From positions 1-29,102 of IMG/VR virus record IMGVR_UViG_3300026097_000074: a DNA stretch of 29,102 nt, one strand, 5' to 3'. Both the position numbers and the translations under genes were made by a program. Positions within the stretch are counted from its first letter, which is position 1. Every line of letters begins with the position of its first letter. This stretch comes from a virus. Below are positions 4,731-14,914 of the stretch, one piece after another. Under the pieces are notes generated by a model. It ran no database searches and had not been told where the DNA came from. It worked only from the letters and a program-made list of their open reading frames with translations.

Positions 4731-6173
4731 TTAGTAGTCGTAACGATCAGACATGAGAGTCTTGCACATTACATTAAAGGGAGTGAAGTCTTCTAGTTCC
4801 TTCACAGAAAGAACTGCCTTCATGATCGCCGGGCTGAAGCCAGATACGTGACATACACCTCGATCGTCGAATCGAACGGGGGTATTGTCGCGACCGTATG
4901 GAGATAGGTTCCAGAAAACGATCTTAGGAACTTCGTAACCTGCTTTAGCATACTTACGCTTGATCATCTCTTGTGCAGAGTCATCGAAGCGAGTGCAAGA
5001 ATCAAATTGCATATCCGAGAGGATGAGCAACATTTCAGGCATATCTACTTGAGCAACATTACCCTTCACAGCAACACGAAGAATTTCTTCGAATGCCACG
5101 TGAAGATTAGTATTCATACTCCAGCGTGTCTTCTCGAGTTGAGCAACACGCTGTGACAGAGTACCCGTCAGAACTTCAAGATTTGGCCTACCGCTGAAAG
5201 TAAGGAACATGTCCTTAAAATCAGAGGTGTTCTTCTCAGATAGATATAGACCCAGAGAGATTGCCACGTCAATTGGCTGAACATAACCCTTGCCCCCGTA
5301 AGAGTAGCGGATGCTACCCATGGAACCGGAAACGTCAACCATCGGCATGATACGAGCGTCGCCAACGTAGTTAGGCAGAGCCTTCCATTGTTCGTTAGCA
5401 ACAGCTGCATTACCCTTCACAACAGACTTCACAACATCATATGGGTATACCGCAGATGCATTGATCTTAACCTTAGAGCTACGTTCAGATTCAGGCTTTT
5501 GAAGTTCACGAAGGTACGCGCTATAAGCCTCTCCTGCATTACGCCCAAAAGCCTTTTGATAACGAGCAGAGGCTAGTGAAGGAACGTGCGAGAAGTTAAT
5601 GCTTTCCCACCTCTTAGCGCACATCTGAGACTCTACGACGCTGGTCAGAGCTGAGAGCATTTTACGGTACTCACGAGGATTCATTTTCATGAACGTACAA
5701 AGTTCACGTGCAATTGCTCTTTTACTGGACTTCTCGCGAGGAGCCCACTTGGCAGCAAGACCGTCACCGTTACGAAGAGCGTCTGCATACATCTCAAGCG
5801 CCTTACGACGGTTGATTGGGTCTGCATATGTAAATAGATCGTCCCAACGACCAAGGAACGGAATCTTGTGCATTAGACGGCCAGCAAGACTAGGGTTAGC
5901 AGACTCAAGAGCAACAAGCAGATCACGAAACTGTTTACGCTCTCCTGCCCCGGAACGAATATCCCGAGTCCATAGAAGAGCGCGTATTGCTAGATCTTCA
6001 TTATCAGCAAGAGCTGCTTGAAACTCTTTTATAAGAGACGTACCACGACTAGACCCTGCTTTACCAAAGAAGTCTAGCACCGCAGACGCAGAAGTCTTAC
6101 GAGCTTTCATACCGTTGGTAGTACGAGTAGGAGTTTCATTAATATAGTTTACTGCTGCAGTCTTAAAAGACAT
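4731..6173 (-). CDS. DUF2828/TROVE-type (Ro60-like) protein with vWA domain
   Basis: A 480-residue protein. Residues 1-260 form an alpha-helical repeat domain of the DUF2828 type, with WTRDIRSGAGERKQF (68-82), FLGRWDDLF (106-114), FSHVPSLASARY (194-205) and INASAVYPYD (237-246). Residues 270-480 are a von Willebrand A domain with an intact metal site: DVSGS (280-284), a Thr in MNTN (353-356) and LSDMQFD (385-391). This ring-plus-vWA plan is that of Ro60/Rsr, which binds misfolded RNAs and Y RNAs and, in bacteria, works with PNPase in RNA turnover. AAGGA lies 7 bases before ATG. The gene looks richer in G+C than its neighbours. tRNA-like RNAs sit directly on both sides. RNA binding is inferred. 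Confidence 0.85.
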   Translation of the reverse strand: MSFKTAAVNYINETPTRTTNGMKARKTSASAVLDFFGKAGSSRGTSLIKEFQAALADNEDLAIRALLWTRDIRSGAGERKQFRDLLVALESANPSLAGRLMHKIPFLGRWDDLFTYADPINRRKALEMYADALRNGDGLAAKWAPREKSSKRAIARELCTFMKMNPREYRKMLSALTSVVESQMCAKRWESINFSHVPSLASARYQKAFGRNAGEAYSAYLRELQKPESERSSKVKINASAVYPYDVVKSVVKGNAAVANEQWKALPNYVGDARIMPMVDVSGSMGSIRYSYGGKGYVQPIDVAISLGLYLSEKNTSDFKDMFLTFSGRPNLEVLTGTLSQRVAQLEKTRWSMNTNLHVAFEEILRVAVKGNVAQVDMPEMLLILSDMQFDSCTRFDDSAQEMIKRKYAKAGYEVPKIVFWNLSPYGRDNTPVRFDDRGVCHVSGFSPAIMKAVLSVKELEDFTPFNVMCKTLMSDRYDY

Positions 6174-9167: not shown

Positions 9168-9234
9168 TGGTAGTAGAAGATAGACTCGAACTATCCCTAA
9201 AGGCTTATGAGACCTTCGTACAGACCTCTTTACT
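9168..9234 (-). tRNA. tRNA(CAU)-like, D arm missing or degenerate
   Basis: T arm GATAG/CTATC with TTCGAGT, anticodon arm AAGGT/GCCTT with loop CTCATAA, A73 and CCA are intact. The best 5' strand AGTAAAG pairs with TTCTACT at six of seven positions (one G-U), but only 11 bases remain between acceptor and anticodon stem, so no normal D arm can form. Probably a decayed Met/Ile tRNA. Confidence 0.5.
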
Positions 9235-13333: not shown

Positions 13334-13984
13334 TTACATTTTTTCTATTTTATACAGAGAGTAATATTTTTTCGGCCTAACACCTATATCATTAGTTCTA
13401 AATGCTAAAAAGTCTTGCTCATTATCAAATGTTATATACGTACTAGGGGTTGTCTGTCTTAGAATATCATTAACTAAGCTGTGTGAGTAACCATTTTCGT
13501 GAAAATAGTTAACAAAGTCAGTCACATCTCTGTTGTGTTTCTGTATCATTTCCATCAAACTAAACTCGATGGGAAGAAAGGTAATGTAAGGAGTGTGAAA
13601 GCCCATCTTACCTTCTATAGTTAAGTTATTTGAGGCCATTGCAATCATAGCACACGCACTCATACATAGAGTATCTTGCTCTACTACTACTGCAATGTTA
13701 TAATCTGCTAGGTGCCTGCCTATAATGTAAGCATCTCGTACAAAACCACCGGTACTATTAATTACTAATACATCTGTGTCATATACCATAAGTATACGTC
13801 TTAACTGAAGCGCAATCCCTGAACTTATGTAGCCTTTATAATATAAAAAGGATTTGTCTTCTACTTGCTCGTACACAATTTGCAGTTCTGGTTTATTAAC
13901 TATTATCTCTTTTGTGGCTGCTGTAACAGTAAAAGGAGTCATAAGCGCTGAAACCAGGGCTATTACTTTAAAGAAGTTACTCAT
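13334..13984 (-). CDS. secreted ClpP-like serine protease homologue
   Basis: A 216-residue protein. Residues 1-22 form a signal peptide (MSNFFKVIALVSALMTPFTVTAA) with an AxA-type cleavage site. The body follows the ClpP/crotonase fold: VLVINSTGGFVRDAYIIGRHL (72-92, the oxyanion-forming GG), CMSACAMIAMA with the candidate nucleophile Ser109, and GFHTPY with His130. Length and sequence resemble bacterial periplasmic ClpP-like proteins of unknown target. A phage could use it on envelope proteins, or it may act as a non-ATP-dependent peptidase; both are inference. There is no strong binding site at the ATG. Confidence 0.78.
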   Translation of the reverse strand: MSNFFKVIALVSALMTPFTVTAATKEIIVNKPELQIVYEQVEDKSFLYYKGYISSGIALQLRRILMVYDTDVLVINSTGGFVRDAYIIGRHLADYNIAVVVEQDTLCMSACAMIAMASNNLTIEGKMGFHTPYITFLPIEFSLMEMIQKHNRDVTDFVNYFHENGYSHSLVNDILRQTTPSTYITFDNEQDFLAFRTNDIGVRPKKYYSLYKIEKM

Positions 13985-14007
13985 TTCATTTTAACACCCC
14001 TATATTT

Positions 14008-14815
14008 ACCTACAAAACAGCAGACAGCTTCTAAGTTTATACTTTCCGCTATAGGCAATTACTAACGAAGTCTAGCTTATTTGTAGGTGCTCGTCTCTCC
14101 GAGCTGTCACACCGATTCTACATTATAAGAAACTCTTCGCGTTGGTGTAACGCGGATTGGTTTCGTATCGCATATTATCCACAAGTTAATTAACTGGATG
14201 GTCTGTGGACTCAACGATACTATTTTCCAATCATTCTGATTATGTAGGTTGCCCTACTTACTTGGTTGCAGTATCCATCCTATGGCGGTGTTTCGTTTGC
14301 CAGACGTGACAGCTTGTTAAATAACTGCCATCAATTTATAAAGTAGCTCACTGCTTAATTTTATCTCTTAGCTGTTTAGTAGGCGTATACTTATTTTTTT
14401 GTTCTATCCGACGCAAAATCGCTGCATTACAATAATGCTACAGAAATATTAACAGGGTCATTTTTTGCTACATCCAAGCTAAATATTATTGCGGAACTGA
14501 CCCTAAATACGGGGTGCCCTATCTCCTCCGGTTAAGACCAGCAAAGATTTGATTTCTTCCTGAACCGACACCCAATTCAGATATAGACTGTTACTTAGTT
14601 GCAAAACAGATTATCAACAGTCTAAGTTCATCTGCGCAACCTCATCTAGTATTCGATGAGGATTTAAATGGGATTCACTAAGTGAAGAGCCCTCTCGAAA
14701 TCCTTACGGACTCGGAATCGATAGGTATCTCTCCTATCTGAGGACCACGACTTTTATTATAGTGAGTTTGGCTCCACAGCTTTCAGACTTCTCACTTTAG
14801 CCTCCAATAAGGAGG
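14008..14815 (-). ncRNA. giant structured RNA candidate (GOLLD/ROOL type)
   Basis: About 810 bases without a usable ORF, inside the tRNA array directly after tRNA-Pro. Helices on the minus strand include ACCTACAAA/TTTGTAGGT (14088-14080 with 14016-14008, 9 bp), AGCTGTCAC with GTGACAGCT (14314-14306 with 14110-14102, 9 bp), AGACTGTT/AACAGTCT (14616-14623 with 14585-14592, 8 bp) overlapping an ACTTAG/CTAAGT pairing as a pseudoknot, AGGGTCA/TGACCCT (14504-14498 with 14460-14454), CCTCATC/GATGAGG, CGCGTT/AACGCG, GCTCG/CGAGC and GTAGG-GCAA-CCTAC with a GNRA loop. Giant GOLLD and ROOL RNAs are known from phages beside tRNAs. The size fits GOLLD best. Family assignment is inference; structure is seen directly. 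Confidence 0.7.
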
Positions 14816-14819
14816 ATTT

Positions 14820-14897
14820 TGGTCAGGATAGAAGGATTCGAACCTTCGGCCTCTGCAGTCCAAGTGCAGCACTCTAACCAGACTGAGCTATACCCTG
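14820..14897 (-). tRNA. tRNA-Pro(UGG)
   Basis: Acceptor CAGGGTA/TATCCTG with C1-G72 and A73, as in bacterial Pro. D arm GCTC/GAGT, anticodon arm CTGCA/TGCAG with loop CTTGGAC, T arm GAAGG/CCTTC, CCA encoded. The giant RNA begins only a few bases after the CCA. Confidence 0.92.
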
Positions 14898-14914
14898 ATA
14901 TTATTTTTTGTTTA

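Follow-up and report, generated by a model that had tools for sequence, protein, structure and literature searches.

The window, a whole IMG/VR record of 29,102 bases, contains an RNA of about 730 bases that is real and evolutionarily conserved, has at least three pseudoknots and lies outside every catalogued family. This RNA is modular: its parts X and Y, joined in the window by a linker Z, occur together or separately in other aquatic phages.

A conserved noncoding RNA next to tRNA-Pro

The record carries 24 tRNAs, all on the minus strand (ARAGORN), as well as groES, Hsp20, NAD ligase, UvdE and other phage genes. The interval studied is bounded by a tRNA-Pro and by an ORF of 216 aa (Table 1), whose PHROG matches range from E 4.6e-9 (a function-unknown family) to 9e-4. 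A tRNA-Pro also stands 5' of the element in L014, L017 and L100. Elsewhere in the record, an Rfam tRNA match of 30.7 bits at 9171-9234 (minus strand), absent from the ARAGORN calls, adjoins tRNA-Glu; it is possibly a degenerate tRNA.

The first-pass annotation had described the interval as a gene-free RNA of about 810 bases with no usable ORF. The longest ORF inside 13985-14819 has indeed 35 codons, but the length has to be reduced: what is conserved is a highly structured noncoding RNA on the minus strand, 14815-14089 (~730 nt), and the last ~80 nt of the interval, beyond 14089, are not conserved. The minus strand folds at -239.5 kcal/mol versus -198.3 +/- 9.0 for shuffled sequences (z -4.55), and the plus strand has a z of -3.61. 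Within the helices that covary there are more G.U than A.C cells (21:6 for Y, 16:1 for X); the RNA is therefore the minus strand. It holds more than ten helices, most of them backed by relatives, where at least ten had been announced. Three pseudoknots are supported by relatives (PK1, PK2 and PK3) instead of the two candidates first proposed, and the GNRA hairpin that had been noticed turns out to be one of two GNRA-type hairpins, CC-GUAA-GG (in X1) and GUAGG-GCAA-CCUAC. The initial view of a giant structured noncoding phage RNA adjoining tRNAs is supported.

Table 1. Features of the RNA and its neighbours in the window; a slash separates the two strands of a helix.
Feature	Position	Strand	Remarks
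tRNA-Pro(tgg), CCA encoded	14820..14897	-	ARAGORN; Rfam 69 bits; immediate 5' neighbour of the RNA
5' hairpin of X, CCUCC-UUAUU-GGAGG	14801..14815	-	matching CCCC..GGGG hairpins in L011, L014, L017, L100
X1, GNRA-loop hairpin CGAGUCC GUAA GGAUUUCG	14696..14714	-	2/7 pairs doubly changed; 100% of cells paired
X2, GGG/CCC + UUCAC/GUGAA hairpin	14670..14692	-	double changes in both helices
X3, CCUCAUC/GAUGAGG hairpin	14640..14661	-	double changes once held-out L027 is included
PK1, H-type pseudoknot	14584..14634	-	X4 stem + 9-bp UAGACUGUU/AACAGUCUA
X4, CAGAU/AUCUG within PK1	14634-14630/14611-14607	-	
UAGACUGUU/AACAGUCUA, 9 bp of PK1	14624-14616/14592-14584	-	
X6 + conserved AGGAAGAAAUC + PK2	14512..14580	-	100% of cells paired
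X6 hairpin	14580-14576/14564-14560	-	double changes in 4/5 pairs
PK2, GGGUG/CACCC	14573-14569/14516-14512	-	double changes in 3/5 pairs
Z1, hairpin AGGGUCA...UGACCCU with conserved AGCUUGGAUGUAGCAAAAA	14454..14504	-	kept in L027, one compensatory pair
Z2, hairpin GAU-GGCAG / CUGUC-AC-GUC + invariant GUCUGGCAAACGAAACACCGCC	14284..14332	-	shared with L100
Y	14089..14280	-	13-sequence alignment; PK3
GNRA-type hairpin GUAGG-GCAA-CCUAC	14257-14244	-	
PK3	14148-14144/14113-14109	-	
Terminal hairpin GACA-GCUCG-GAGAGA-CGAGC, last element of Y	14089..14108	-	exact 20-mer family; covarying stems
Tail stem-loop, 9-bp closure ACCUACAAA/UUUGUAGGU (14088-14080/14016-14008)	14008..14088	-	candidate; z -2.78
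Downstream ORF, 216 aa	13334..13984	-	weak similarity to head-maturation/Clp-type proteases

Relatives in other tRNA arrays

Neither blastn against annotated phages nor a search through the adjacent 216-aa protein found relatives. A NAD ligase search led to two related contigs, L002 and L003; L003 has, within a tRNA array, a 75% match to 97 nt of the interval. The conserved core GTCGGTNNAGGAAGAAAT retrieved members in L009, L011, L014 and L017, and two further patterns retrieved the 3' part in more than 12 phage contigs. These sequence relatives all belong to uncultivated phages (IMG/VR), on contigs of uncertain completeness. Searches of annotated phages and plasmids recovered nothing beyond the 25-nt region of the terminal hairpin, in two Gordonia phages, and no X or full-length match. 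The pattern GTCGGTNNAGGAAGN{15,45}TAGGGC added no members of X; matches to CCTCTAAATGNTGAGGTNG were mostly chance occurrences in coding sequences, and T5-like capsid genes gave a 27-nt match (E 0.1) that was likewise put down to chance. Topic searches of the literature retrieved no description of X or Y.

The one full-length orthologue found is in a phage of 100.6 kb, where 640 ORF-free nucleotides (L100:7447-8086) fill the same slot, between tRNA-Pro and tRNA-Gly. The same phage has a permuted tmRNA of the alphaproteobacterial type at L100:11042-11452 (124.6 bits with RF01849, 111.6 bits with RF04321). At L003:7984-9676 a single array interval groups GOLLD (197 bits), a sub-threshold manA match, tRNA-Met and X, i.e. 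an "RNA island" between tRNAs. A tRNA with a CTA anticodon (called tRNA-Pyl by ARAGORN), a possible amber suppressor, is common in the Y-type phages (L021, L023, L026, L027, L032, L094, L096, L102 and L112).

Searches with models of known families

On 13900-14900, cmscan at E<=10 returned tRNA and noise only, and at Rfam gathering thresholds the whole record returned tRNAs only. The GOLLD model (RF02032, gathering score 150 bits) had no match in 13900-14900 at E<=10 or in the record; the same search detected GOLLD in L003 (197.1 bits) and in the contig of L097 (168 bits). Among 22 records searched whole, these two were the only ones with GOLLD, which is separate from X in the former and from Y in the latter. 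Because GOLLD coexists as a separate RNA, the window RNA is not orthologous to it. The ROOL model (RF03087, gathering score 99.1 bits) matched neither the 22 records nor the interval, a weaker test than that of GOLLD as no positive control rang. L100 matched neither model. For manA (RF01745) there was no match in the window, and L011 was positive. An HDV-like theta ribozyme, considered for its adjacency to tRNAs, was set aside after no HDV-type match was obtained with the Rfam models. The kinship with GOLLD or ROOL suggested by the first-pass annotation, which had proposed this very search, is therefore not retained, nor is an assignment to any other Rfam family at E<=10; its second suggestion, a possible new class, is supported.

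Module X

Module X extends over 14815-14512. Its core, GUCGGUNNAGGAAGAAAU with PK1 and PK2 around it, is present in the window. In five sequences the 44-pair structure of X is paired in 97.5% of cells, versus 36–43% when partners are slid by 1-3 columns, a control that flatters the structure since this was drawn from the tested sequences. Compensatory changes affect 13 of the 44 pairs, both pseudoknots included, and none of 500 shuffles reached as many. L027 and L009 stand outside that alignment. The covariance model of the X core (R1) detected both although neither was in its seed: L027:11226-11388, previously unrecognised, with 64 bits (E 1e-11) and L009 with 40.5 bits (E 2e-6). The window itself, a seed member, scores 142.6 bits. 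With these two sequences added, 91.1% of cells pair (32–46% when slid), double changes are found in 16 of 29 pairs, and again 0 of 500 shuffles did as well.

The loop of X1 is swapped between GNRA and UUCG among relatives, and X2 is missing in L011 and L003. PK1 shows compensatory double changes at 5 of 9 pairs, with 96.8% of cells paired over seven sequences. In L003 and L009 the GGGUG/CACCC of PK2 becomes GCCCG/CGGGC. Two long-range 9-bp helices had been claimed without coordinates, and we infer that they were UAGACUGUU/AACAGUCUA and ACCUACAAA/UUUGUAGGU: the first is real and covaries, as part of a pseudoknot, whereas the second, which closes the tail, is without homologue.

Linker Z and the 3' tail

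Z1 and its counterpart in L027 share 89% column identity, AGGGUCA/UGACCCU being replaced by AGGAUCA/UGAUCCU. Z2 has a covarying stem in L100 (GAC-AAUGG / CCAUU-GC-GUC), followed by 22 identical nucleotides (GUCUGGCAAACGAAACACCGCC). The gap of about 120 nt between Z1 and Z2 (~14453-14333) has no homologue; a strong local hairpin, UAGCAUUAUUGUAAUGCAG, lies there on the minus strand. A third 9-bp complementarity, AGCUGUCAC (14314-14306) with GUGACAGCU (14110-14102), was rejected: L100 lacks it and retains the Z2 hairpin instead, and conserved helices compete with it. No homologue was found for the tail (14088-14008), which is specific to the window phage; its candidate stem-loop stands at the position taken by tRNA-Gly in the relatives.

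Module Y and its terminal hairpin

Y is composed of a GGAUGG/CCAUCC pseudoknot, a GYAA-loop hairpin, a UCCACA/UGUGGA helix, a CGCGUU/AACGCG hairpin with PK3, and the terminal GACA/GARAGA hairpin; PK3 and the terminal hairpin are both present in the window. In 13 sequences, most of them from closely related phages of one group, 87.3% of its 40 pairs are intact versus 26–41% when slid, and 11 pairs show double changes. GGAUGG/CCAUCC and UCCACA/UGUGGA are strong helices, but being invariant they prove nothing alone. PK3 is found in 14/14 sequences of relatives in two unrelated versions, ACACC/GGUGU (or ACACU/RGUGU; n = 9) and AUGU/ACAU (n = 5). The sequence is wholly replaced from one to the other, and each version sits inside a hairpin with a covarying stem. 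Pairing is conserved among relatives in both X and Y, a point that the first-pass annotation had raised.

The terminal hairpin has a far wider distribution. The exact 20-mer GACAGCUCGGARAGACGAGC was found in at least 119 viral stretches, in 34 bacterial-genome stretches, with Pseudomonas, Clostridia, Bacteroidota and Actinomycetota among the sources, and in two Gordonia phages (loci: window 14089-14108, minus strand; L022, L024, L029, L030, L046-L081 and L114-L228). Loci with other stems (GCUUG/CAAGC, GCCCG/CGGGC, GGCCG/CGGCC and AAUUG/CAGUU) still have the GACA flank and a GARAGA hexaloop, where ~0.06 random matches were expected over the loci examined. No paper with the 20-mer was found in the open-access literature searched. 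In Pseudomonas prophage loci (L048:3013-3091 and L062:7071-7148) the hairpin comes ~95 nt after Proteo-phage-1 RNA (RF03044), along with a terminator-like stem that has a run of T. A search of 85 contexts for a shared helix immediately 5' of the GACA hairpin did no better than shuffles; PK3 therefore belongs to Y only. Short, well defined and present in different phyla, the hairpin offers a way to seek a partner.

Modules together and apart

The interval is pieced together from modules that occur independently, a point that the first reading had missed. X, Z and Y are together in the window and in L100, and a single array of L027 contains X, Z1, tRNA-sup, an ORF and Y. In L017 the part of X with GGGUGUCGGUGUAGGAAGAAAUCA and the end of Y are fused in a 284-nt hybrid between tRNA-Pro and tRNA-Gly. 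X alone accompanies manA in L011, lies in the GOLLD-carrying array of L003, and precedes a groES-like start by ~30 nt in L009. Y alone stands behind an ORF and before tRNA-Gly or tRNA-Leu in L023, L026, L032 and L102.

Possible roles of the RNA

The RNA probably represents a new family of large, modular noncoding RNAs, excised from the array and mainly trans-acting, similar to GOLLD and ROOL in its way of working but belonging to neither. It would be transcribed along with the tRNA array and released by tRNA processing, through 3' end maturation of tRNA-Pro and, in the relatives, RNase P at the following tRNA. By analogy with GOLLD and ROOL, the released RNA would then accumulate during infection as a compact, mainly trans-acting structural molecule, which may serve as an RNA scaffold or as a particle binding host machinery. 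X and Y would be separate domains shuffled among phages. Transcription, processing, abundance, trans action and oligomerisation are all what we infer for this RNA. The presence of GOLLD in the same arrays places the window RNA in the same RNA neighbourhood.

The main rival is a role in cis, X and Y being leader or spacer structures (riboswitch, antitermination, stability) for the gene or tRNA directly downstream. We regard it as possible: it is kept alive by the position of X before groES in L009 and, in L011, directly 5' of an RNA of the manA family, which is listed as cis-regulatory. The position of Y between ORF and tRNA, directly behind the ORF in L023, L026 and L027, and the frequent occurrence of the terminal hairpin tens of bases upstream of start codons point the same way. 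The element 3' of X or Y nevertheless varies (216-aa ORF, tRNA-Gly, tRNA-Leu, small ORF, manA, groES), tRNAs do not need a leader aptamer, and a multi-pseudoknot unit of ~730 nt, kept whole in L100, would make an unusually large leader.

Y, and above all its GACA/GARAGA hairpin, could also be a recognition or cleavage site separating tRNAs and mRNAs in a polycistronic transcript. In phages and prophages of several phyla the exact hairpin is often 3-12 nt 5' of tRNAs, in the relatives the hairpin of Y ends 4-6 nt 5' of tRNA-Gly, and L064 and L080 have it in tandem with covarying stems. Such a processing or insulation element seems unlikely, as it leaves X and Z1/Z2 unexplained, the window hairpin precedes a non-tRNA stem-loop and then an ORF, and many copies are far from tRNAs, as in the Pseudomonas prophages beside Proteo-phage-1 RNA.

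A highly diverged GOLLD or ROOL would share the size class, the tRNA-array habitat and the richness in pseudoknots, but is very improbable given the tRNA and noise that were the sole Rfam matches at E<=10, the lack of a match to either model in L100, and the separate GOLLD RNAs in the arrays of L003 and of L097's phage. Chance folding of a decaying intergenic region, which the helices found by eye and the parts without homologue (the tail and about 14453-14333 of Z) might evoke, has a negligible probability and is already refuted for X and Y by covariation and orthologues.

A broader version of the trans-acting reading is more doubtful: a class of giant modular RNAs unrelated to GOLLD and ROOL might form a particle during infection, its terminal hairpin being kept across many phyla for engaging a conserved host machine. 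As to a partner, the minus strand of 4731-6173 encodes a 480-aa protein similar to Ro60, with TROVE and VWA domains (PHROG 850, DUF2828/DUF7788). A Trove domain is the sole PDB fold match below E 0.001 of its predicted structure (moderate confidence, mean pLDDT 64). The protein is found in 9 of the 22 phage records with X or Y and in 682 annotated phages, none of them with X or Y found; it is too widespread to be retained as a specific partner. It might at most be an available, putative RNA-binding partner.

Comparison with known phage RNAs

Proteo-phage-1 RNA shares with the window RNA the same hairpin downstream of it in Pseudomonas prophages; it differs by its size (82 nt), its location outside tRNA arrays and the absence of a match in the window. 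Theta ribozymes (HDV-like) are phage RNAs adjoining tRNAs for which a role in tRNA-trailer processing has been proposed (PMC10879173). The manA RNA is, like X, a structured RNA of marine phages; in L011 it follows X immediately (62.1 bits), and the array of L003 has a sub-threshold match of 43.9 bits. X has nevertheless a distinct sequence and fold, and sits upstream of manA.

The closest likeness is to GOLLD and ROOL, which are found close to tRNA islands and assemble into cages made of RNA alone, with no known function (PMC12286853). GOLLD is a large, pseudoknot-rich RNA of phages and prophages located in tRNA arrays, and is itself modular, with a variable 5' domain and a conserved 3' domain (PMC12286853). 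It differs from the window RNA in that it has no covariance-model match there and is found alongside X or Y as a distinct RNA. ROOL, about 600 nt long, is a phage RNA that has several pseudoknots and occurs close to tRNA islands (PMC12286853); it too is large, pseudoknot-rich and close to phage tRNAs, but its model is likewise without match. Since habitat and size are what is shared, the window RNA may be said to "work like" GOLLD or ROOL, not to be one of them. Only a handful of large structured RNAs are known from bacteria and phages, the nanocage-forming GOLLD and ROOL being without known function. Another large RNA of the same niche, with covarying pseudoknots and interchangeable modules, makes it possible to test what the RNAs of tRNA arrays have in common.
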